The notes: generated by a model not told the origin, from the sequence alone. Positions 6,942 through 18,652 are shown, counted from the first letter of the stretch. The stretch: DNA of 33,032 nt from Thermoanaerobacterales bacterium (GCA_030019475.1 JASEER010000005.1:1-33032); one strand, 5' to 3'. A program made the numbers and translations.

Positions 6942-7670
6942 TTATAGCTTGAGGCCCAAGGCGGCCATTCGGCGGCGAACAAAGGCCAGCTGTTGCTGTA
7001 GGGGTAGCTGCGCCGGGCAGTTGTCCTCACAGGCCATAAGGCCGATGCAGCCGAAGGCCCCGTCGTTATTCCCCACGATCTCATAAAAGGCACGGCCCGA
7101 ACGCAGGTCGCGGGGATCGACCATGAAGCGGGCGACCCGGTTGAGACCGGCGGCACCGAGGAATTCCTGCCGGATGTTGGCCGTGGCGCAGCCGGCGATG
7201 CAGCAGCCGCATTCGATACAGCGCTCGGCTTCATAGATCTTGAGAGCGGTGGCGTTGTCCATCCGGTCCTCCCTGGCTGTAGGATCAAACTCCTTGTCGG
7301 TATGGATCCAGGCTTCGGTCTTCAACGAGAGATGCCGAAACCAGGTGCCGGTATCGACCGAAAGGTCGCCGATCAGCTTGAAAACCGGCAACGGCAACAG
7401 GGTAATCTGCTTGGGCAGCGTTCTGGTCAGGGTTTTGCATGCCAGGCCGGGGCGGCCGTTGATGAGCATACCGCAGGAACCGCAGATCGCCGCCCGGCAG
7501 ACGAAGTCGAACATCAGAGAGGGGTCCTGTTCCTCGCGGATGCGGTTCAAGGCCACGAAGAGGGTCATCCCCTCGGTTTCATTCAGCCGGTAGGTCTGCA
7601 GATGCGGAGTGACCTCATGTGAAGCGGGATTGTAACGGAAAATCTTAAAGGTCAGTTCACGATTAGGCAT
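6942..7670 (-). CDS. frdB: Fumarate reductase/succinate dehydrogenase iron-sulfur subunit
   Basis: This 242-residue subunit passes electrons between the diheme membrane anchor and the flavin subunit. It carries cysteines for all three clusters: CRAAICGSCGM plus a later C for [2Fe-2S]; CIECGCCIAGC for [4Fe-4S]; and CIGLMACEDNCP for [3Fe-4S]. The ATG at 7670 has GGGAGGT at 4 bases, and that SD lies immediately after the frdA stop, so the two are tightly coupled. The order C-A-B matches Wolinella fumarate reductase and Bacillus succinate dehydrogenase. Sequence alone cannot settle the physiological direction, but neighbouring fumarase, C4-dicarboxylate uptake and the anchor's features favour fumarate reduction. 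Confidence 0.94.
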   Translation of the reverse strand: MPNRELTFKIFRYNPASHEVTPHLQTYRLNETEGMTLFVALNRIREEQDPSLMFDFVCRAAICGSCGMLINGRPGLACKTLTRTLPKQITLLPLPVFKLIGDLSVDTGTWFRHLSLKTEAWIHTDKEFDPTAREDRMDNATALKIYEAERCIECGCCIAGCATANIRQEFLGAAGLNRVARFMVDPRDLRSGRAFYEIVGNNDGAFGCIGLMACEDNCPAQLPLQQQLAFVRRRMAALGLKL

Positions 7671-7680
7671 GTTTACCTCC

Positions 7681-9513
7681 CTACGCCTTCTGTGGATTGG
7701 ACCCTGTGCCGGACTGGGCGGATGATTCGCCGTAGCCCCGGTCGCCCGGAGGCAGTTCGGTAATCTTCACCGGCTCATACTTCAACTCGGGCAGGTCGGC
7801 ATCGGGCGGCCAGTAAGACAGGGTGCGCTTCAGCCAGTTGACGTCATCGCGTCGCGGGTAATCCTCGCGGGCGTGGCTGCCCCGGCTCTCGGTGCGCTGC
7901 AAGGCACCGTAGGCGATGCACAGCGCCAGGCGGATCATACCCGGCAGACGTAGGGCCGACGTCAGTTCGGGGCTGGCACCTCGTCCGCTTGATACCAGGC
8001 CGATGTGGCGCGAACGCTGGTGCAGCTCCTGCAGCCGTGCGACCGCCGTTTCGAGATCCTTGCCGTTACGGAAGATGCCCACATAGTCCATCAGGGTCTG
8101 CTCCATCTCCCGCCGTAGATGATAAACATTCTCCTTCCCGTTGCGGCCGTAGATGAGGTCGGCCAGGCGCGCCTCCTGGCGGCGAATCCGTTCCTCCACC
8201 AGTCGCGAGGAGAACTCCAGGTCGGCGCCGAGGGCGTACTCGGCGATTTTCTGGCCCACGATCATCCCGGCCACGATGGTCTCCGCCAGGGAGTTGCCGC
8301 CCAGGCGGTTGAAACCGTGCAGGTCCCAGCAAGCGGCCTCGCCCACGGCGAACAGGCCTTTAAGACCGTAAGCCTTGCCGTCGATGTTGGTCCGCACGCC
8401 GCCCATGCTGTAGTGCTGGGTCGGGCGCACAGGGATCAGCTGGTGCACCGGGTCCACGCCGACGAAGTTGCGGCAAATGTTGGCGATCTCGCGCAGGTTG
8501 GTGTTAATATGTTTCGCCCCGAGATGGCGGATGTCCAGCCACAGATGCGGGCCGTAGGGGCTGTCCACACCGAAGCCCTTGCGCATATGCTGGATCATGC
8601 GCCGGGAAACGACATCACGGGAGGCCAGTTCCTTCTTCTTGGGTTCATAATCGGGCATGAAACGGTACTCGTTCTTGTCCAGAAGGTAGCCGCCGTCGCC
8701 CCGGGCACCTTCGGTGATCAGAATCCAGACGGGTACGAGACCGGTGGGGTGGAACTGGACGGCCTCCATGTTGCCCAGGGGAACCATTCCGGTGTCGAGG
8801 GCCAGGGACATCCCGGTGCCCTCGTTGATGACCGCGTTGGTGGATGCGCCGTAAAGGCGGCCGTAACCGCCGGTGGCGATGACGGTCGCCCGGGCCAGAT
8901 AGGCCGTGAGCGCCCCCGTCCGGAGGCAGCGGGCGACGGCGCCGAGGCAGCGCTCCCCGTTGTGGATGAGGGCGATGGCCTCCATCCGGTCGTGAACGGT
9001 AATCCCCATTTTGATAACGATGGAGTCCATGGTGTATTGCAGGGTATGCCCCGTACCGTCGGCGGTGTAGCAGGTGCGCCACTTGGCGGTGCCGCCGAAG
9101 TCGCGGGCGTTGATGAGGCCCTCGTACTCGGGCTCCTCCTCGATCACCCGCCCGTCGGGAAGTGTCCGCTTACCGGCCACGACCCGGCTCCAGGGAACGC
9201 CCCAGTAGGCCATCTGGCGGACGGCGATCGGTACCGTTTCCACGAAAAGGCGGGCGACGTCCTGGTCGCAGCCCCAGTCTGAACCCCTTACGGTGTCAAC
9301 GAAGTGGATATCCGGGTTATCGCCCCGGCCCATGGCGCAGTTGCCGAGGGAGGCCTGCATGCCCCCCTGGGCCGCCGTGCTGTGGGAACGCCGGGGCGGG
9401 ACCAGGCTGAGGATGGTCACGTTCAGCCCGTGGGAGGAGGCTTCGATGGCCGCCCTTTCCCCTGCCAGGCCGGCGCCGATGATGAGAACGTCGGTGACGT
9501 GCGTGGTCACCAT
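7681..9513 (-). CDS. frdA: Fumarate reductase/succinate dehydrogenase flavoprotein subunit
   Basis: The 610-residue catalytic subunit. It begins with a Rossmann FAD loop (IIGAGLAGERAA, residues 11-22) and has the covalent flavin histidine H44 in HSTAAQGG. Active-site blocks include QFHPTGLVP, EGARGDGGYLL, the SRDVVSRRM arginine segment and RPTQHYSMGGVRT. The C-terminal helical region ends with a proline-rich tail. The ATG directly follows the frdC stop (TAG then ATG) and uses GGAGGTG, inside the end of frdC, as its SD. Together with frdB it forms the soluble cytoplasmic part of the complex, interconverting fumarate and succinate. Confidence 0.95.
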   Translation of the reverse strand: MVTTHVTDVLIIGAGLAGERAAIEASSHGLNVTILSLVPPRRSHSTAAQGGMQASLGNCAMGRGDNPDIHFVDTVRGSDWGCDQDVARLFVETVPIAVRQMAYWGVPWSRVVAGKRTLPDGRVIEEEPEYEGLINARDFGGTAKWRTCYTADGTGHTLQYTMDSIVIKMGITVHDRMEAIALIHNGERCLGAVARCLRTGALTAYLARATVIATGGYGRLYGASTNAVINEGTGMSLALDTGMVPLGNMEAVQFHPTGLVPVWILITEGARGDGGYLLDKNEYRFMPDYEPKKKELASRDVVSRRMIQHMRKGFGVDSPYGPHLWLDIRHLGAKHINTNLREIANICRNFVGVDPVHQLIPVRPTQHYSMGGVRTNIDGKAYGLKGLFAVGEAACWDLHGFNRLGGNSLAETIVAGMIVGQKIAEYALGADLEFSSRLVEERIRRQEARLADLIYGRNGKENVYHLRREMEQTLMDYVGIFRNGKDLETAVARLQELHQRSRHIGLVSSGRGASPELTSALRLPGMIRLALCIAYGALQRTESRGSHAREDYPRRDDVNWLKRTLSYWPPDADLPELKYEPVKITELPPGDRGYGESSAQSGTGSNPQKA

Positions 9514-10134
9514 CTATAAGGCACCTCCCAACTGGGCAAAGACCCACAGGATGACCAGACCAAGGCCGAAGATGACGGCGCTCACCGTCTTGGTTACCCA
9601 GCTTACGGTGTGCCGGTTGATCCAGCCCCACTTGACGAATACCCGGTAAAGGCCGAAGCCGGCATGGTACTCGCCAAAAACCAGCAGAAGCAGATAAAAC
9701 CACCAGTAGGTATGAATCCGGTCCGCGCTCTGGAGAGCCCGGATCGGCCATCCGGTGAGGATGGAAGCCACATGAATGCCGGCCAGCGCTCCCACTCCCA
9801 GCGCCGTGAATAGCTGGAAGACCCAGATCCAGGTGTCGGTGTGGTTAACCAGCCGGACGTGCCGCCAGAACTCCCGGTAACGGGTCGGGATGCGCCGGCA
9901 GACGGCGAAGACGTGAACGAAGGCCGCCGCGATAACGACGGGAATGCCCAGGTATGAGAGCCAGTAACGGTCCAGGAAGGCGGCGAACCGGTCAAAAGTG
10001 CCCATCCCGAGCAGGATCACGGCCAGAAAGAGCATGTGGGTCCAGAGGAAACCAACCAGGACGACGGCACTGACCAACTGCGCCAGTTCGACGTACAGGT
10101 CGGCCTTCAGATTGGTGTTAACGGTCTTTTCCAA
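9514..10134 (-). CDS. frdC: Diheme cytochrome b membrane anchor of fumarate reductase/succinate dehydrogenase (class B)
   Basis: This 206-residue protein has five hydrophobic helices. Four histidines lie in helices at H33, H74, H121 and H157, the pattern of the four axial ligands of two b hemes in class-B enzymes. E155 sits two residues before H157 in the block GEYHAGFGLYR, matching the position of the E-pathway glutamate (E180, with heme ligand H182) of the Wolinella enzyme, where it carries compensating protons during menaquinol-dependent fumarate reduction. The start is TTG at 10134, with GGAGGAG 9 bases upstream. The 66 bases before it contain no convincing promoter, so it is probably co-transcribed with the fumarase genes. 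Confidence 0.92.
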   Translation of the reverse strand: MEKTVNTNLKADLYVELAQLVSAVVLVGFLWTHMLFLAVILLGMGTFDRFAAFLDRYWLSYLGIPVVIAAAFVHVFAVCRRIPTRYREFWRHVRLVNHTDTWIWVFQLFTALGVGALAGIHVASILTGWPIRALQSADRIHTYWWFYLLLLVFGEYHAGFGLYRVFVKWGWINRHTVSWVTKTVSAVIFGLGLVILWVFAQLGGAL

Positions 10135-10200: not shown

Positions 10201-10758
10201 TTAAGGCGCCTGGGCGTATTCCCGCCGCCCCCGCCGGTAAAGATCCTCACCGCGGCAGTCGATGGCCACGACGGCGGGGAAATCCTGGACCACAAACTCA
10301 TGGATGGCCTCGGGCCCAAGGTCGGGATAAGCCACGACCCGCGCCGCCTTGATGCAGCGGCTCAGAAGAGCTCCGGCACCCCCGACGGCGGCGAAGTAAA
10401 CGGCCTTGTGGTTTCGCATGGCCTCGACCACGGCCGGCGAGCGGTAACCCTTTCCAATCATCCCCTTCAACCCCCGCGCGATCAATGCCGGAGCATAGCG
10501 GTCCATGCGCCCGGCCGTAGTGGGGCCGGCGGCCCCCACGACCCTGCCGGGGGGCGCCGGACTGGGGCCCACATAGTAGATGATCTGGTTGGTAATGTCG
10601 ATGGGCAAGGGCTTTCCCTGGTCCAGCAGTTCATACATCCGCTTGTGGGCGGCGTCCCGGGCGGTATATACCGTCCCGCTGATGAGGACGGGCTGGCCGG
10701 CATGCAGGCTTTCGACGACGGCATCGGTAAGGGGCGTGGTTATCTTCAACGGTTTCAT
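10201..10758 (-). CDS. Fumarate hydratase class I, beta (C-terminal) subunit
   Basis: This 185-residue subunit pairs with the upstream alpha subunit in the iron-sulfur fumarase that hydrates fumarate to malate. Family blocks are LKITTPLTD at the start, LISGTVYTARDAAHKRM, YYVGPSPAPPG, GPTTAGRMD and IGKGYRS. The ATG at 10758 (MKPLKI) has GGAGGG about 10 bases upstream and matches the family N-terminus. An in-frame ATG at 10785 overlaps the alpha-subunit stop (ATGA) but lacks an SD. The paralogous activity in other members is tartrate dehydratase; the fumarate-related neighbours favour fumarase. Confidence 0.93.
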   Translation of the reverse strand: MKPLKITTPLTDAVVESLHAGQPVLISGTVYTARDAAHKRMYELLDQGKPLPIDITNQIIYYVGPSPAPPGRVVGAAGPTTAGRMDRYAPALIARGLKGMIGKGYRSPAVVEAMRNHKAVYFAAVGGAGALLSRCIKAARVVAYPDLGPEAIHEFVVQDFPAVVAIDCRGEDLYRRGRREYAQAP

Positions 10759-10781
10759 TCGGCGTTTCCCTCCTTCCCCCG

Positions 10782-11624
10782 TCATAAGAGCGTCGACTTG
10801 TGGCGCATCGCATGGCAGTTGATGTTTACCGCCACGGGCAGCGAGGCGATGTGCGTGGGATACAGCTCGACGTGTACGGCCAGGGCGGTCACCCGTCCTC
10901 CCAGACCCATCGGCCCGAGTCCCAGGGCGTTGATCCTTTCCAGCAGTTCGGCCTCCAGCGCGGCCGCCGCCGGGTCCGGGTTGGGCCTGCCGAGGGGGCG
11001 CACAAGGGCCTCTTTGGCCATGAGGGCCGCCTTTTCCATCGTCCCGCCGATGCCCACCCCGACCGTCAACGGCGGGCAGGCGTTGGGGCCGGCGGCAAGC
11101 ACAGTATCAATAACGAACTGCTTGACTCCCTCCACCCCGTCCGCCGGCTTAAGCATTTTTAAGGCGCTCATGTTTTCACTGCCGGCTCCTTTGGGGACGA
11201 CGGTAATGCGCAGCTGATCACCCGGAACGATCCGGCAATGGATCACCGGCGGCGTATTGTCGCCGGTGTTCACCCGTTCCAGGGGGCTCTTGACCACCGA
11301 CTTGCGCAGGTAGCCTTCGGTGTACCCCTGGTGGACCCCCTCCGTAACTGCGGCGTACAGGTCGCCGCCGACGATGGCCGCCTCCTGCCCGACATCGAGA
11401 AAAACGACGACGATGCCGGTGTCCTGGCACATGGGGATCCTTTCACTCTCCGCGATGGCGGCGTTGGTCAAGAGCTGTTCCAGGATTTCCCGGCCGACCG
11501 GGGAGACTTCTTTCCCCCTGGCGTTTTCTAGAGCGGCGCGGACATCGGCTTCGAGTTCAAAGCATGCTTCCTGGCAGAGCCGGGCCACAGCCGCGATAAT
11601 GTCATCGGTATTGATGGTGCGCAT
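10782..11624 (-). CDS. Fumarate hydratase class I, alpha (N-terminal) subunit
   Basis: This 280-residue subunit holds the oxygen-sensitive [4Fe-4S] cluster. The three expected ligands are visible at C66 (PMCQDTG), C183 (AGPNACPPL) and C270 (NINCHA). Other family blocks are VNTGDNTPP, PKGAGSENMSALKML and VGVGIGGTMEKAA. The ATG at 11624 has GAGGAGGGA at 8 bases. It follows dctM by 36 bases and overlaps the possible upstream start of the beta subunit. An oxygen-labile class I fumarase fits an obligate anaerobe. Confidence 0.94.
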   Translation of the reverse strand: MRTINTDDIIAAVARLCQEACFELEADVRAALENARGKEVSPVGREILEQLLTNAAIAESERIPMCQDTGIVVVFLDVGQEAAIVGGDLYAAVTEGVHQGYTEGYLRKSVVKSPLERVNTGDNTPPVIHCRIVPGDQLRITVVPKGAGSENMSALKMLKPADGVEGVKQFVIDTVLAAGPNACPPLTVGVGIGGTMEKAALMAKEALVRPLGRPNPDPAAAALEAELLERINALGLGPMGLGGRVTALAVHVELYPTHIASLPVAVNINCHAMRHKSTLL

Positions 11625-11660: not shown

Positions 11661-12941
11661 TTACGGCATCAGGACCCGCGGGATGTAGAGCGAGATCCCG
11701 GGCCAGTAAATAAGCAGGACCAGGAACGCCAGCATGATCACCAGGAAGGGCAGGACGCCCTTGATGACCTCTTCGAGGCGGGAACGGGCCATAGCGCTGA
11801 CGACGAAGAGGTTGAGGCCGACGGGCGGCGTGATCATGGCCAACTCCATGTTTACGGTCATGATAACCCCGAAGTGGACCAGGTCGATACCAAGGGCGGT
11901 GATCATCGGTAACAGGACCGGCAGGGTGATCAGGGTGATGGCGACGGCCTCGAGGAAGGTGCCCATCACAAAGAACATAATGTTGCACGCGAACAGGAAC
12001 AGGTAGCGGTTCAGGTTGCTGTCGGAAATCCACTGGGCCACGGCTCCTGGGATTTGGTTAAAGGTTAGGAAGAGCGAAAAGACCATGGCCGCGGCGATCA
12101 CCAGGAAGATCATTGAAGAAATATTGATCGCCTCGCGAAAAATAAGACGCATGTCTTTGAGGCTCAGTTCCTTATACAAAAAGCCCGAGACGATAAGCGC
12201 ATAGAAAACCGAAAGAACGGCCGCCTCGGTCGGGGTGACGACACCCTTGTAAATAGTGCCCAGGATAAAGAAGGGCAGGACGAACCCGGGCAGCGCCTTA
12301 AGGGTTGTCTGCCAGCGTTCTGTCCAGGACGCCTTCGGGGCTCGGCCGTAGTTGTGGCGTAAGGCCATGGCGATGGCTGAGACCATTAGGATTGCACACA
12401 GCAACAGGCCGGGGAGCAGCCCGCCCATAAAGAGCTTGCCCACCGATTCCTCCACTGTGACGCCGTAGACGACCATGACCACGCTCGGCGGGATAAGGAT
12501 GCCGAGGGTACCGGAGGCGGCGATAAGGCCCATCGCGTAGCGTTTTGGATAACCACCGTGGATCAAGGCGGGGAGCATAATCGCGCCGATGGCGGCGGCC
12601 GTGGCCGGGCTGGAACCGGAAATGGCGGCGAAAATGCCGCAGGACAGAACGGTCACCACCGCCAGGCCTCCGGGGAGATGGCCCAGCCAGGCGCGGAGGG
12701 CGTGGATCAGGTACTTGGCGATGCCGCCGCGGGACATAACCACCCCGGCAAAAACGAAGGCCGGAATGGCCATAAGGGGAGGAGAGAGCAGCGAGGCGAA
12801 CATCCGCTGCACAACCATGTAGACCGTGAAATCGCCCTGCAGGAAGATGACAATAATCGCCGCTACGGCCAGGCTGACGGCGACCGGGACATTCAGGAGA
12901 AACAGTATGACGAATATACTAAACAGCGCTAGGGTGGCCAT
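11661..12941 (-). CDS. dctM: TRAP transporter large permease DctM
   Basis: A 426-residue polytopic membrane protein with about 12 hydrophobic segments. It forms the ion-coupled translocation channel of a TRAP dicarboxylate importer. Family features include AIPAFVFAGVVMSRGG near the first third, SSPATAAAIGAIMLP, the conserved block ASGTLGILIPPSVVMVVYG, and TPPVGLNLFVV near the C-terminus. The ATG at 12941 has GAGG 4 bases upstream and lies 23 bases inside the end of dctQ, so the two are coupled. The frame continues upstream to 13016 but that part is out-of-frame dctQ. Confidence 0.95.
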   Translation of the reverse strand: MATLALFSIFVILFLLNVPVAVSLAVAAIIVIFLQGDFTVYMVVQRMFASLLSPPLMAIPAFVFAGVVMSRGGIAKYLIHALRAWLGHLPGGLAVVTVLSCGIFAAISGSSPATAAAIGAIMLPALIHGGYPKRYAMGLIAASGTLGILIPPSVVMVVYGVTVEESVGKLFMGGLLPGLLLCAILMVSAIAMALRHNYGRAPKASWTERWQTTLKALPGFVLPFFILGTIYKGVVTPTEAAVLSVFYALIVSGFLYKELSLKDMRLIFREAINISSMIFLVIAAAMVFSLFLTFNQIPGAVAQWISDSNLNRYLFLFACNIMFFVMGTFLEAVAITLITLPVLLPMITALGIDLVHFGVIMTVNMELAMITPPVGLNLFVVSAMARSRLEEVIKGVLPFLVIMLAFLVLLIYWPGISLYIPRVLMP

Positions 12942-13491
12942 AATCCTCGTCCCTCGCTTCCTGGGCGGCGAACCATGCCCGCCCGCCGTCCTTGAGCAAC
13001 AGCCATAGCTTTTCAATAAAGCGGAAAGCCAACATTAGTCCCGCCACGGGAAGGATCAGGGCGATGATCCACTCGGGGGTCTGGGTGTTGACGGTCCTTT
13101 GCCCCATCTTCAGGTAGAAGGCGACAAGGAGGTAACCGTAGTAGCAAAACAGGATAGAAAAACCAACCCCCACTGTATTGGCGAAAAGGCTCACCCACCG
13201 TTTCACCTTTAACGGCAAGAAGTTATAGAGCATGTCGACCTTGATATGGTGCTCGTTACGCTGGGCGACGGCCCATCCGAGCATGGTACCCCAGACAACC
13301 AGGTAAATCGAATACTCGTCAATCCAGGCCTTCGGCCGCCAGGCGGGAATATAGCGCAGGATGACGTTGACCATGACAAGTGTCAACCCGGTGAACAAGA
13401 GCCCGCCGGCCAGATAATCCTCCACGGCGGCGTAGATTTTCTTTAACTTCTGCAACCTGTGATCCCCCCGTGTGACAGACTGGAAAGCCAT
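12919..13491 (-). CDS. dctQ: TRAP transporter small permease DctQ
   Basis: This roughly 180-190-residue protein has four hydrophobic helices and the DctQ block IDEYSIYLVVWGTMLGWAVA, followed by HIKVDML. It partners DctM in the membrane. The start is unresolved. ATG at 13491 is used here but has no SD and begins only six bases after a strong hairpin. TTG at 13455 begins right at the conserved KLKKIYAAVEDYLAG block and has a G-rich stretch 8 bases upstream. A GTG at 13515 lies inside the hairpin and is unlikely. Confidence 0.9.
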   Translation of the reverse strand: MAFQSVTRGDHRLQKLKKIYAAVEDYLAGGLLFTGLTLVMVNVILRYIPAWRPKAWIDEYSIYLVVWGTMLGWAVAQRNEHHIKVDMLYNFLPLKVKRWVSLFANTVGVGFSILFCYYGYLLVAFYLKMGQRTVNTQTPEWIIALILPVAGLMLAFRFIEKLWLLLKDGGRAWFAAQEARDEDYGHPSAV

Positions 13492-13496
13492 AATGC

Positions 13497-13527
13497 GGGG
13501 GGCGGGAGTGAGCACGTCCCGCCCCCC
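13497..13527. promoter_or_regulatory. Strong hairpin between dctP and dctQ
   Basis: An 11-bp perfect GC-rich stem (13497-13507 with 13517-13527) closes a 9-base loop. It starts 26 bases after the dctP stop on the minus strand. No T-run follows, so it is probably not a full terminator. Its position suits a 3'-end barrier that raises binding-protein expression relative to the permeases, or an attenuator of dctQM. Confidence 0.75.
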
Positions 13528-13553: not shown

Positions 13554-14588
13554 TTACTTCGCCGCCTTGGCCGAGTCGATGTACTCCTGGCCGATGATCG
13601 GCACGTACTTGTCGTAAACCGGCTTCAGTGCTTCCTCGAAGGCCTTGCGGTCGGCATCGGTCAGGTTGTAGACCTCGAGGCCGCTGTTCTTCAGGGTCTC
13701 GAAGCTCTTCGCGTTCAGCTCGTCGGCCAGCTTGATGGCGTAGTCCGTGGCTTCCGCCATGGCGTCGGTGATGATCTTCTTCTGGTCGTCGGTGAGGCTG
13801 TTCCAGAAGGTGGTATTGGTCAGCACCACGTAGTCCAGCCGGCCGTGGGCGGAGACCGTCAGGTACTTCTGCACCTCGGCGTACTTCTGGGTGTCGATGT
13901 TGTTGAAGGTGTTTTCGGTGCCGTCGACCGTCTTGTTCTGCAGGGCCTGGTAGCATTCGGAGAAGGGCATCGGCTGCGCGCCCGCGCCGAGCGCCTCGAA
14001 CTGGTCGACCAGCAGGCCGCCGCTCTGGACGCGGAACTTCAGGTTCTTGAAGTCGGCCGGGGTCTTCAGGGGCCGCACGCCGTTGATGAAGTGCTTGGAC
14101 CCGTTCGGCCACCAGGCCAGGCCCAGCATCCCCTTCGGCTCCAGGGAGTGCAGGAGCTTCTCACCCATCTCGCTCTTGTACCAGTTATAAGCGGCCTGGT
14201 CGCTGGCGAAGAGGAAGGGCATATCAACCAGCTGGAAGGACTGGTTGTACTTAATGAGCTTTGTAACCGAGGGCGCGATGAACTGGACGTTGTTGGAGAG
14301 CAGGGCCTCCAGTTCTTCGTTGTCCCCGAAGAGCGAGGACGACGGGAAGACGGAAACCTTCATCGTCCCACCGGACTTCTGCTCGATAAGTTCGGCGAAC
14401 TTCAGAGCGGCCTGGCCCTTGGGAGTCTTCTCGGCCACGACGTGGGAGAACTTCATTTCAATAACCTTGGTTTCCTTGTCCTTATCGGCCGTATCCTGGG
14501 CGCCGCCGCCGCCACAGCCGGTGACGACAAAGGCAAAAACTCCGATCAGGACAAGTGCCGTCAAAATTACCCATAGACGCCTTTTCAT
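13554..14588 (-). CDS. dctP: TRAP transporter substrate-binding lipoprotein (DctP family)
   Basis: A 344-residue extracytoplasmic binding protein. The N-terminus is a lipoprotein signal (basic K2-R4, hydrophobic 5-22, lipobox VTGC with C25 as lipidated residue) followed by a glycine-rich linker. The mature part has DctP landmarks: KFSHVVAEKTPKGQAA, LKFRVQSGG with the conserved substrate-carboxylate arginine, and MPFSECYQALQNKTVDGTEN. The GGLLVDQFEALGAGAQ stretch deviates from the common DctP pattern, while the neighbouring paralogue keeps that pattern. The SD GGAGG is 7 bases before the ATG. It lies directly before dctQM and is probably the transport component. Confidence 0.93.
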   Translation of the reverse strand: MKRRLWVILTALVLIGVFAFVVTGCGGGGAQDTADKDKETKVIEMKFSHVVAEKTPKGQAALKFAELIEQKSGGTMKVSVFPSSSLFGDNEELEALLSNNVQFIAPSVTKLIKYNQSFQLVDMPFLFASDQAAYNWYKSEMGEKLLHSLEPKGMLGLAWWPNGSKHFINGVRPLKTPADFKNLKFRVQSGGLLVDQFEALGAGAQPMPFSECYQALQNKTVDGTENTFNNIDTQKYAEVQKYLTVSAHGRLDYVVLTNTTFWNSLTDDQKKIITDAMAEATDYAIKLADELNAKSFETLKNSGLEVYNLTDADRKAFEEALKPVYDKYVPIIGQEYIDSAKAAK

Positions 14589-14660: not shown

Positions 14661-15752
14661 TCACCCCCCCTTTCGGCCCGCCTTGCGGGCGGCGTTAATC
14701 AGGTCGGCACTGACCTGCTCGGCGAAAGAGTTATAAACCGGGGCCAGTGCTTGTTCCCACTCCCGCCGTTCTTTTGGTGTCTGTAAATGAATCTCAAGGC
14801 CATCCATCTTTTTCAAGGTCTCAAGGTCTTTGGCGTTGGTGGCGGCGGCGTAATCCCTTTCCCACCTGGTAACATCCTCCAGGCTATCCTCCAGGACGGC
14901 CCGGATGTCGGGCGGCAGTGAACGCCAAAAGTCCTGCTCTGCCAGGACCACGTAACCCAGAAAGCCATGATTGGAAAGGGTCATATAGGTCTGTCCCTCG
15001 TAAAGCCTCTTGGTCCGTAGATTCGAGAGGGTGTTCTCCTGCCCGTCCACACGGTCATGGGCCAGCGCACCGGGTACATCGCTGAAGGCCAGCGGGATGG
15101 GCTCGGCGTTTAGAAGACGGAATTGTTCCTGCAGCACCGAACTGCCCATCATCACCCGAAAACGGAGACCGGCAAAGTCTACGGGATGGACCAGGGGCCG
15201 CACCCGGTTGGTCATCTGCTTGAAGCCGTTATCCCAGAAAACCAGGGGTACCAAGCCCTCGGCCTCCAGCGCCTCAAAGAGCCGGGCGCGTGCCGGGCCG
15301 TCGACAAACCGGTGCACCGCCTCATAGGACGGAAAGAGGTAAGGCAGGTCAAGCACCTGCCAGGCGGGAGCGATTCCGGCCAGCTTCGAGGTGGCCGGAG
15401 CGATAAGCTGCACCTTTCCTTCCCGGAGGGCCTCAAATTCCTCCCCGTCCTTATAGAGGGTTGAGTCGTGAAAGACCTGGACCTCCACCCGCCCCCCCGT
15501 CCGCTGCCGGACCAGTTCGGCGAACCTCTCGACAGCCATCCCTTTGGGACTGTCAGCCGTCGTCACGTGGGAGAACTTAACGACGATTTTCCGGGCCGGG
15601 TCGACCTGTTCGCTGTCCGTCACGCGCTGGGTGCAGCCGTTAAAAAAAATGAGCGCCAAGACAAGCGCCAGGCTGATTAGAATAACTCTATACGGGAAAT
15701 GGGCTTTTCTAGTTAGCAACAAAACCTTGTTGCTGTAGGTACTATTCACCAT
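14661..15752 (-). CDS. Second TRAP-type binding lipoprotein, possible DctB-like co-sensor
   Basis: A 363-residue paralogue of the adjacent DctP. It has an unusually long N-region (about 22 residues) before the hydrophobic core, then a lipobox FNGC with C40. Family blocks are KFSHVTTADSPKGMA, LRFRVMMGS with the conserved arginine, and VDGQENTLSNL. The ATG at 15752 follows GGAGAG by 4 bases. A sigma-A promoter with an overlapping palindrome sits immediately upstream, and the regulator gene precedes it. It may be a second binding protein for the same transporter, or a co-sensor. In Bacillus subtilis a DctP-like protein, DctB, works with the kinase DctS. The proximity to the two-component genes suggests the latter, as an inference. 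Confidence 0.9.
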   Translation of the reverse strand: MVNSTYSNKVLLLTRKAHFPYRVILISLALVLALIFFNGCTQRVTDSEQVDPARKIVVKFSHVTTADSPKGMAVERFAELVRQRTGGRVEVQVFHDSTLYKDGEEFEALREGKVQLIAPATSKLAGIAPAWQVLDLPYLFPSYEAVHRFVDGPARARLFEALEAEGLVPLVFWDNGFKQMTNRVRPLVHPVDFAGLRFRVMMGSSVLQEQFRLLNAEPIPLAFSDVPGALAHDRVDGQENTLSNLRTKRLYEGQTYMTLSNHGFLGYVVLAEQDFWRSLPPDIRAVLEDSLEDVTRWERDYAAATNAKDLETLKKMDGLEIHLQTPKERREWEQALAPVYNSFAEQVSADLINAARKAGRKGG

Positions 15753-15764
15753 TAGCTCTCCACT

Positions 15765-15801
15765 TTTAGAAAATTCTAAATAGATGTCATCGAGGACTCA
15801 A
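15765..15801 (-). promoter_or_regulatory. Sigma-A promoter of the dctP operon with overlapping palindrome
   Basis: On the minus strand TTGAGT (15796-15801), exactly 17 bases, then TAGAAT (15773-15778) precede the ATG at 15752. A perfect palindrome, TTTAGAA-AA-TTCTAAA on the plus strand (15765-15780), covers the -10 box and the expected start of transcription. Upstream of the -35 box the DNA is A-rich (about 15805-15835, at the end of the regulator gene), a plausible response-regulator site. Confidence 0.7.
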
Positions 15802-15823
15802 CGTTTCGGTAATTGTGTTTATT

Positions 15824-16537
15824 TTAATCTTTTTGGTCCAAGGGTGGGGAAGCGTTGACCACGCGGTAGCGGTTTACGGGCCGGCCCACCGAGCCATACT
15901 GCAGTTCCAGGCCGACCTTCCCCACCCGCTGCAGGTAGTCCAGGTAGCGCCGGGCGGTGACACGGGCCAGCCCGACGCCGGCGGCGACCTCGTCGGCCGA
16001 AAGACTCTTCTCTTGTCGCAGCAGATAGACGTAAATCTGCTTCAGGGTCAGCTCGTGAAGCCCCTTGGGAAGGCTCTCCTTTCCGGCTTCTTCGCGGGCG
16101 GCGCCGCGTGCAAAGCGATCGACGGTCTCCTGGTCCACCAGCCCGCGGTGATGCGCCAGGCCTTCATGCATACCGGCGTATGATTCCAGGGCGGCCTTCA
16201 GGCGGTTGAACTTAAAGGGCTTGATAATATAGTCGATCGCTCCATGGCGGATGACGTCCTGGATCGTTGGAACGTCCTGGGCGGCGGTAATCAGGATGAC
16301 ATCCGTAGGCAAAAGGCGCCTTCGTATCTCATGGAGCACAGCCACACCGTCCATATCGGGCAGGTAAATGTCCAGGAGTGTCAGGTCCGGTTTCAATTCG
16401 GCGATGCTGTCAAGGGCCTCGGCTCCCGTGGCGGCGAGGCCGACAACAGTAAAGAAAGCCACCGACTGTACGAACTGGCGGTTGACTTCGGCGACCATTG
16501 GGTCGTCCTCGACAATCAGGGTTCTAATGTTCGCCAT
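15824..16537 (-). CDS. dcuR: Response regulator, CitB/DcuR/DctR type
   Basis: A 237-residue two-component regulator. The N-terminal receiver domain has the acidic pair E10/D11, phospho-acceptor D56 in LLDIYLPDMDG, the switch threonine in LITAAQD and the lysine in IIKPF. The C-terminal part (about 165-225) holds a helix-turn-helix (SADEVAAGVGLARVTARRYL) of the CitB kind. The ATG at 16537 lies 22 bases inside the kinase gene, with GAGAGGA 9 bases upstream, so kinase and regulator are translated together. The expected target is the promoter of the binding-protein gene that follows 71 bases later. Confidence 0.93.
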   Translation of the reverse strand: MANIRTLIVEDDPMVAEVNRQFVQSVAFFTVVGLAATGAEALDSIAELKPDLTLLDIYLPDMDGVAVLHEIRRRLLPTDVILITAAQDVPTIQDVIRHGAIDYIIKPFKFNRLKAALESYAGMHEGLAHHRGLVDQETVDRFARGAAREEAGKESLPKGLHELTLKQIYVYLLRQEKSLSADEVAAGVGLARVTARRYLDYLQRVGKVGLELQYGSVGRPVNRYRVVNASPPLDQKD

Positions 16538-18135
16538 GGGTTTTTCCTCTCTTCCCGGCGGGGGATGGTGACTCTAAAGACGGCGCCGCCGCCCGGGCCG
16601 TCCTCAACCCGGATGGCTCCCCCCGCAAGATCCACATACCGCTTGACCAGGGCCAGCCCCAGGCCCCGCCCTTCAACCCCGTGCGTGCTGTAGCCGGGGA
16701 GAAAGATCCTTTCCCGCTCTTCGGGGGGGATGCCGGGGCCGCGGTCCCTGACAACAATGGTGACGCCGTCAGGCTCATCGAACAGGCCGGCAAAGACCGA
16801 CCGTCGCTCGGGCTCCAGCTGGCGGACGGCTTCAAAGGCATTCTCCAGAAGGTTGCCGATGATAATCACCATGGCGCTGGAGTCGATATGCGGGGGCAGC
16901 TCTTGCAGACGGCTTGTGTGATCGATGACCAGTTCAATACGCATTTCCTTGGCCCGGCTGTGTTTACCCAAGAGCATTCCCGCGATGCCGTAATCATGGA
17001 CGTTCCGGGCCAGGAACTGGGTCAACTCCTGCTGTTCAGCGGTGACCCGGAAAATATAATCCAGGGCCTCTTGCAGCCGGTTGAGCTGGATGAGCCCGGC
17101 GATGGTGTGCAGTTTGTTCATATGCTCGTGGTTTTGTACCCGCAAAGCCTCGATGAACTTCTTCACCCCCGTGAGTTCCTCGGCCAGGCGCTGGACCTCG
17201 GTCTTATTGCGGAACGAGGCCACGGCTCCGACAATCCTGCCCTTAACGCGGATCGGGATGCGGTTGGTGACGACGACCACCTGGTTAATGAGCATCTCCT
17301 GGTTGTATTCCGCCCGGCCGGTGACGAGAACGCGGGGCAGGGCGCTGTCGGGGATGATCTCCCGCACCGGCCGGCCGAGGACGTTACCGGCGCCCATAAT
17401 GCGCTGTGCGGCTTCGTTGACCAGCGTGATCCGCGCCTCGCTGTCGACGGCGAGGATCCCCTCGTTGATGGATTGCAGGATGGCGATCCGTTCCTCCAGG
17501 AGCCGGGCGATTTGCTCGGGTTCAAGGTTGAACATCCCCCGCTTGATGCGGCGGGCCAGGTAGAGAGAGCCCAGGAGGCCGACGAGCAGCCCGAAGGCGA
17601 GGGCGAAATAGAGTTCCATGCGAATCGTTTTCAAAACGCTATGGATCGTCGGCGTAAGAATGCCGACGACGACAACGCCTACCTGCCGTGTCCCCTCTTC
17701 GGTCTTGATGGGCACGAAAGCGCGCACCGACGGGCCGACCACTCCTTCGGCCGGGGAGATGTAATCATCGCCGGTCGTTAACGCACGGGCCAGATCGGGG
17801 TCGGAGAATCTCCGGCCGATACGGTCTTGCAGGGGATGGGAGTAGCGGATGCCGTTATTATCCAGCACGACCACGTAAGCCACGTCGGTGGCCAATCGGA
17901 TGCGTTCGGCCAGGGGCTGGATAACCTGGGCGCCGCCCGGTCGGCCCACGTTTTGTCGGATGTCCTCCATCTGCGCCAGGGTCCGGGCGATGGCGATCGC
18001 CCGCATCCCCATCTCTCTTTCGAGTTGGGCTGTAAACCGCTCCACAACCAGGGCGCCGCCGGCCAGGACGGCGATCAGAATAGAACTGAAACACAGCAGG
18101 GCCATCTTGGTGTGCAGGCCAAATTTCAACTTCAT
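16516..18135 (-). CDS. dcuS: C4-dicarboxylate sensor histidine kinase, DcuS/DctS type
   Basis: A 539-residue membrane sensor, close to the 543 residues of E. coli DcuS. It has TM1 (about 10-32), an extracytoplasmic PAS domain (33-173), TM2 (174-195), a cytoplasmic PAS domain (about 214-310), a histidine box NHEHMNKLHTIAGLIQL with H336 the likely phosphorylated residue, and an ATPase domain with GNLLENAFEA, DRGPGIP and GRGLGLALV. In the sensing domain R97, H100, F110, R138 and F140 match the DcuS fumarate ligands R107, H110, F120, R147 and F149 almost exactly in spacing. Phenylalanine at the last site favours C4-dicarboxylates over citrate. The ATG at 18135 gives the family N-terminus but lacks a good SD; a GC-rich palindrome lies just upstream. 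Confidence 0.93.
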   Translation of the reverse strand: MKLKFGLHTKMALLCFSSILIAVLAGGALVVERFTAQLEREMGMRAIAIARTLAQMEDIRQNVGRPGGAQVIQPLAERIRLATDVAYVVVLDNNGIRYSHPLQDRIGRRFSDPDLARALTTGDDYISPAEGVVGPSVRAFVPIKTEEGTRQVGVVVVGILTPTIHSVLKTIRMELYFALAFGLLVGLLGSLYLARRIKRGMFNLEPEQIARLLEERIAILQSINEGILAVDSEARITLVNEAAQRIMGAGNVLGRPVREIIPDSALPRVLVTGRAEYNQEMLINQVVVVTNRIPIRVKGRIVGAVASFRNKTEVQRLAEELTGVKKFIEALRVQNHEHMNKLHTIAGLIQLNRLQEALDYIFRVTAEQQELTQFLARNVHDYGIAGMLLGKHSRAKEMRIELVIDHTSRLQELPPHIDSSAMVIIIGNLLENAFEAVRQLEPERRSVFAGLFDEPDGVTIVVRDRGPGIPPEERERIFLPGYSTHGVEGRGLGLALVKRYVDLAGGAIRVEDGPGGGAVFRVTIPRREERKNPWRTLEP

Positions 18136-18334
18136 AGAGAAGAAGCCCCCGGGGGGCAAAATCGTGGTTGCCTGCTGGAGAATTGGACATACCTGTTTAT
18201 AAACCCTTCTTTCCGCAGCACGGTAGATTGTATATGGAATGGGGTAAAGAACCACCGCCTGCGAGGCATTAACCTGCGCCCATTCCTCCACACTATAACC
18301 GGAGCATTAAAATGCACTGTAAAGGGGGATGCCG

Positions 18335-18652
18335 ATGTTTGTCAGCCGTGGGCGCAACCACCTTGACCAGCGGGTGGACGTTATTCCGTCACCGAGCCTG
18401 AGGGGCCGCCATGTAACAATCCGTTATGATGGGCTTCTGAACCGCGCGGGGGCGGACCGGGTCTTTATCCATTACGGGTTTGATGGCTGGAAGAAGAAGG
18501 GGACCATGGAGATGCGGCGGGAGCCGGACGGGGCCTTTGCATGTTCCCTGCCGATGGACGGGGACGTGGAATGCAACTTCTGTTTTAAGGACAGCGCCGC
18601 TAACTGGGATAACAACAGCGGCTGGAACTGGGCGACCGACATCCGGCCATAG
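18335..18652 (+). CDS. Stand-alone carbohydrate-binding domain protein (CBM25-like)
   Basis: A 105-residue protein made of a single starch/glycogen-binding beta-sandwich. Visible features are VTIRYDGLL at the first strand, HYGFDGWKKKGTMEM with an aromatic likely to stack on sugar, and the diagnostic end block NFCFKDSAANWDNN followed by GWNWATDI. There is no catalytic domain and no signal peptide, so it should act in the cytoplasm, perhaps on glycogen. The second ATG (18335) is chosen because it is 5 bases from GGGGG; the first ATG (18329) abuts it. It is divergent from the sensor kinase gene and followed by a strong terminator. Confidence 0.85.
   Translation: MFVSRGRNHLDQRVDVIPSPSLRGRHVTIRYDGLLNRAGADRVFIHYGFDGWKKKGTMEMRREPDGAFACSLPMDGDVECNFCFKDSAANWDNNSGWNWATDIRP

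Follow-up and report, generated by a model that had tools for sequence, protein, structure and literature searches.

Two DctP-family binding proteins of TRAP type stand in tandem in this stretch of DNA with a single DctQM permease pair, which raises the question of what the additional binding protein does. The window, that is, the whole 33,032-nucleotide stretch analysed, comes from a Thermoanaerobacterales bacterium (GCA_030019475.1, JASEER010000005.1:1-33032). From gene position, the initial annotation had proposed that the copy nearest the response regulator, here called P1, is a co-sensor of the neighbouring kinase, for which the DctS-DctB-DctA unit of Bacillus subtilis is the precedent (PMC6978683). 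A recent review describes as largely unexplored how binding proteins combine transport with signalling, and counts only about ten characterised examples that act on kinases (PMC9602780). The parts of the locus are the following:

16516-18135, minus strand: DctS/DcuS-type sensor histidine kinase, with its ATG at 18135 and sCache_3_2, PAS, SPOB_a and HATPase domains
15824-16537, minus strand: DcuR/DctR-like response regulator (Response_reg and HTH_64)
15765-15801, minus strand: promoter-like element TTGAGT-17-TAGAAT, just upstream of P1
14661-15752, minus strand: P1, DctB-type DctP-family protein and proposed co-sensor (PF03480, E 1.8e-87; lipobox Cys40)
15606-15617, minus strand: membrane-proximal motif D46-S-E48-Q49 of P1, matching the clade signature D-x-E-Q
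13554-14588, minus strand: P2, transport DctP lipoprotein of the TRAP-I transport clade (PF03480, E 4.2e-99)
12919-13515, minus strand: DctQ, small TRAP permease (PF04290, E 2.4e-31)
11661-13016, minus strand: DctM, large TRAP permease (PF06808, E 2.7e-115)
10201-11624, minus strand: class I fumarase, alpha and beta subunits (NCBIfam)
6942-10134, minus strand: fumarate reductase/succinate dehydrogenase, with cytochrome b, flavoprotein and presumed Fe-S subunit

ORFs and Pfam matches confirmed the tandem pair and the single DctQM pair. The ORFs from the kinase to DctM are intact, and all genes from the kinase to the fumarate reductase/succinate dehydrogenase follow one another downstream on the minus strand. 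The true start of DctM is probably the ATG near 12941. The regulator scores 178 bits against the DcuR model, under the model's own cut-off. Cytochrome b has an NCBIfam match, while the flavoprotein and what is presumably the Fe-S subunit were assigned through sequence and position. A whole-genome search (2.28 Mb) retrieved no DctP (PF03480) beyond P1 and P2, and DctA is absent from this locus according to Pfam, with TRAP DctPQM there instead. Divergent from the kinase lies a short ORF (18329-18652, plus strand) which, by its appearance, looks like a starch-binding-type carbohydrate domain.

The kinase matches the NCBIfam DcuS/MalK family (E 5e-145). Its extracytoplasmic domain, previously called PAS, turned out to be a single Cache domain (sCache_3_2, E 1.6e-29) and not a classical PAS. 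The C4-dicarboxylate site of Escherichia coli DcuS comprises R107, H110 and R147 (PMC12772337). Matched by motif and spacing, R97, H100 and R138 of the kinase correspond to these residues and are invariant in 15 relatives, which is why the kinase itself probably binds C4-dicarboxylates. Given such a complete site in the kinase, the role of P1 may be to modulate the signal and not to carry it.

Anchor, pocket and clade-specific residues of P1

P1 has about 22 residues ahead of the hydrophobic core of its signal sequence, compared with about six in P2, in agreement with the long N-region first described. A helix is predicted at residues 21-37, and Cys40, the putative lipid anchor, occupies the lipobox column of the family. 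A simple motif scan found the lipobox cysteine in about half of the P1s, as we call P1 and its kinase-linked relatives, and none in the rest; those inspected without a lipobox have an N-terminal hydrophobic helix instead, and D-x-E-Q is kept in both kinds. In 114 P1 proteins, D is present in 99%, E in 85% and Q in 99%, against less than 10% in 67 transport DctPs. The P1-specific residues are D46, E48 and Q49, between anchor and domain, M201 beside the substrate arginine, and A78.

The AlphaFold model of P1 (pLDDT 90.5) superposes on PA0884 with a TM score of 0.97 at 40% identity. The polar contacts of PA0884 to succinate or itaconate are K41, K94, R169, N209, N213 and Y236 (PMC12599236); the equivalent residues of P1 are K70, K123, R199, N240, N244 and Y267, 94-100% kept among P1s. 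P1 is thus a protein with a DctP-family domain and a predicted C4-dicarboxylate-binding pocket. The ligand loop, claimed to differ between the copies, does so: it reads FRVMMGSSVL in P1 and FRVQSGGLLV in P2, with one extra residue after the substrate arginine in P1 and a contact position changed from Q to M, the usual residue among P1s (97%). The difference is, however, small, and all polar ligand contacts are retained. The Pseudomonas aeruginosa proteins DctP and IctP (PA5167 and PA0884) share this fold and these contacts, but they are transport proteins on the other branch of the tree and lack the D-x-E-Q motif.

P1-type genes in loci with and without DctQM

A P1 genome scan combined with a reading of gene order showed that the kinase-regulator-P1 trio is conserved across Bacillota. 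Additional regions for the locus set were picked through P1 profile matches, and P1 is single copy in all of the resulting 113 distinct loci. Each of the 40 loci with TRAP DctQM carries exactly one additional transport DctP, whereas the 73 loci without DctQM all carry P1 alone and no transport DctP (0/73; both are raw counts that ignore kinship).

We considered whether P1 might serve both tasks, so that it would signal to the kinase and also, alongside P2, supply DctQM with substrate. One protein does perform transport and signalling in Bordetella pertussis, namely BctC of the TTT-family system BctC-BctE-BctD (PMC5812351), and the P1 of the window has a full ligand pocket. Docking or coupling to SiaQM requires E172 of HiSiaP (E170 of PpSiaP) and K143 of PpSiaP (K145 of HiSiaP) (PMC9352664, PMC9971032). 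With a HiSiaP reference sequence checked against PDB 2cex, a comparison within TRAP loci showed the equivalent of E172 to be retained in 39/41 transport DctPs but only 9/41 P1s, and that of K145 in 38/41 and 7/41, respectively. The DctQM-docking residues are, therefore, relaxed across the P1 clade. The copy in the window is changed mildly (K to R197 and E to D225, with E252 kept), and since these changes are conservative, the argument is weaker for this particular P1, which may still be able to dock to DctQM. Against a dual role also stand the separate transport DctP in every DctQM locus and the stronger co-divergence of the kinase with P1: over the 40 TRAP loci, distances correlate at r 0.91 for kinase and P1 and at r 0.61 for kinase and transport DctP (P2), with a bootstrap difference of 0.11-0.43. 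Taken together, we regard a dual role as improbable.

P1 could instead be a second transport protein that widens the substrate range of DctQM and has no signalling role; it has a genuine DctP fold, its pocket is intact and it is located near DctQM. Yet P1 is not restricted to DctQM loci, unlike what is required of a TRAP transport DctP, and it is kept in the 73 of 113 loci that lack DctQM. These contain DctA (37), TAXI-TRAP (16), a LIV-type ABC transporter (5) or no transporter (15), partner families having been confirmed by Pfam on examples. To our knowledge, DctA, LIV ABC and TAXI systems do not use DctP proteins, and a purely transport-related P1 thus appears less probable still than a dual one.

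Under the co-sensor reading, P1 should accompany the kinase rather than a transporter, and the two genes do occur together. Ignoring kinship, both were found in 92 of 299 Bacillales genomes, P1 only in 1, the kinase only in 6 and neither in 200; among 113 genomes of the window's own class, the corresponding numbers are 34, 1, 0 and 78, and P1 lies near 35/35 kinases in this class. In the Bacillales set, P1 was detected within 6 kb of 93 of the 100 DctS-type kinases at the first threshold. Of the remaining seven, five do have a P1 that is either sub-threshold (four) or broken (one), another lies at a contig end and the last lacks P1, which brings the count to 98/100 after reading the exceptions. 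Most of the apparent kinase-only genomes therefore proved to have a sub-threshold or broken P1. On a quick P1 tree, parsimony implies that the type of transporter has switched about 30 times, a kind of count that tree error and unseen genes inflate.

Several individual loci depart from the common layout. One clear loss of P1 was found beside a TAXI-TRAP system, where the DctS-type kinase and regulator persist (L217, in genome G236). No P1 was present in the ten loci read of a sister kinase group (503-541 bits). Several of these P1-less sister kinases (L224-L231 and L148) adjoin three genes encoding proteins of about 505, 152 and 348 aa, which, judged by size alone, are as expected of a tripartite tricarboxylate transporter. 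In Desulfosporosinus (L017 and L018), kinase and P1 are divergently oriented, with no regulator found beside the kinase; L018 has a second DctQM pair. Pelotomaculum and its kin (L005, L007, L010, L012 and L067; e.g. L007:5543-16100) carry the trio close to genes for fumarase and succinyl-CoA synthetase-like proteins, with an intervening LexA gene and no transporter. This neighbourhood resembles what has reportedly been published as the mmc propionate-oxidation cluster, and the sensor might there control catabolism rather than uptake.

Phylogeny, codon bias and the upstream element

P1 and all kinase-linked copies were separated from the transport DctPs by a single split with a support of 97 (FastTree, 150 rows), which was recovered in 79% of bootstraps in an IQ-TREE analysis of 70 rows. 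Neither a single P1 clade nor an alternative topology, in which the TRAP-II transport DctPs join some of the P1s (AU p 0.44), was rejected. The placement of P1 inside the TRAP-I/proteobacterial transport clade was rejected (p 0.001). The B. subtilis DctB sequence, verified by a 100% match at 496.6 kb in a 4.2 Mb genome, places among the P1s. P1 thus groups with DctB and kinase-linked proteins, away from P2 and, in the FastTree analysis, from all transport DctPs, and the trees do not put both proteins of the window inside transport DctP clades.

The nearest relatives of P1 are P1s of TAXI loci from another family in its order (100/98), whereas those of P2 are TRAP-I DctPs of Desulfofundulus; the two neighbours therefore have different histories. 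The tandem position of P1 and its lower conservation between species might suggest a young copy of P2 that arose on the spot and is drifting with no settled role, but this is scarcely credible given that sisterhood of P1 and P2 is rejected (p 2e-91), that P1 is intact with invariant clade-specific residues, and that its closest relatives lie in TAXI loci.

Codon bias also separates the two copies. P2 has the strongest bias in the operon (ENC 35.5, compared with 47.9 for P1 and 42.5 for the kinase), and its ribosome-binding site, AGGAGG, is better than that of P1. Across loci, the transport copy exceeds P1 in 33/40 cases (p 3e-5) and P1 resembles the kinase, the pattern expected for a sensor part as opposed to a bulk binding protein.

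A palindrome, TTTAGAATTTTCTAAA (15765-15780, minus strand), overlaps the -10 box of the promoter-like element. Three genomes from two families (G000, G049 and G050) each contain the pattern TTTAGAANNTTCTAAA a single time, at most about 100 bases upstream of P1, and its reversed control is absent. The palindrome is a likely candidate for the site of the regulator. In one G050 locus (L145, G050:C108:5000-20000), P1, TAXI-TRAP, fumarase and the unique palindrome are intact, but only a remnant of the kinase is left and there is no regulator; we read this locus as a decaying or re-wired sensor unit. Within the signal-peptide codons of P1, a terminator-like hairpin is followed by eight T (15652-15669, minus strand; GGCGCTTGTCTTGGCGCT-CATTTTTTTT), although shuffled versions of the stretch contain terminator-like sites at least as often.

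Proposed sensing unit and related systems

Clade membership, near-obligate kinase linkage, co-divergence, the conserved pocket, the relaxed docking residues and the unique upstream element lead us to read P1 as a membrane-anchored co-sensor of DctB type that serves the kinase, and P2 as the binding protein of the transporter; we assign this reading a probability of roughly 0.85. The proposal made from position is supported: P1 shares a clade with DctB and follows the kinase into loci without DctQM, so that the interpretation no longer depends on position alone but is based on comparison.

According to this model, P1 would be tethered at the membrane's outer face through its lipid, or through an uncleaved helix as in many Bacilli, and would close upon a C4-dicarboxylate (succinate, fumarate or malate). 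The loaded protein would then touch the single-Cache domain of the adjacent DctS-type kinase, possibly through the D-x-E-Q segment, and P1 and kinase would jointly determine how far the DctR-like regulator is phosphorylated, the direction of the signal being presumed. The regulator would switch on the C4-dicarboxylate operon, probably by binding at the palindromic promoter that precedes P1. Transcription from there would cover P1, P2, DctQM and the genes for fumarase and fumarate reductase/succinate dehydrogenase, with P2 supplying DctQM.

The closest known system is that of B. subtilis, reportedly described by Graf et al. in 2014 as DctB-DctS-DctR-DctA, whose DctB is distinct from the proteobacterial kinase of the same name. 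Tree, profile and gene order indicate orthologous binding proteins, kinases and regulators, and the likely ligands are the same. The B. subtilis locus runs P1 (DctB), kinase, regulator and DctA, with DctB divergent from the kinase and lacking a lipobox cysteine; here, P1 is a lipoprotein whose gene separates the regulator from the transporter genes and has a transport DctP as its neighbour, and TRAP DctPQM replaces DctA. Since the transporter varies across the clade, we do not treat a DctA partner as defining a DctB-type co-sensor, and the locus is best filed as a variant of the DctB-DctS-DctA unit with a TRAP transporter in place of DctA. The Bordetella system likewise has a substrate-binding protein signalling to a neighbouring sensor kinase, but BctC does both tasks alone, whereas two proteins would share them here, and the fold is DctP and not TctC. 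DcuS of E. coli is a kinase of the same family with a partner protein, although the partner is the transporter itself (DctA or DcuB) and no binding protein is involved.

More broadly, we consider it reasonably likely that kinase, regulator and DctB form a Bacillota-wide plug-in sensor of C4-dicarboxylates, in which the binding protein gave up transport for good. Repeatedly, this unit would have been joined to unrelated transporters (two TRAP types, TAXI-TRAP, DctA and LIV ABC) or, in propionate-oxidising Pelotomaculum, come to lie near fumarase and succinyl-CoA synthetase genes with no transporter. A single fold would thus be divided into adjacent transport and sensor copies, splitting detection from import, and the D-x-E-Q motif together with the docking residues distinguishes the one from the other. 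Many Bacillota genes annotated as TRAP transporter DctP could, on this basis, be re-annotated as sensors, and the locus would lend itself to studying what use a kinase makes of a second, loaded receptor when it already has a Cache site.
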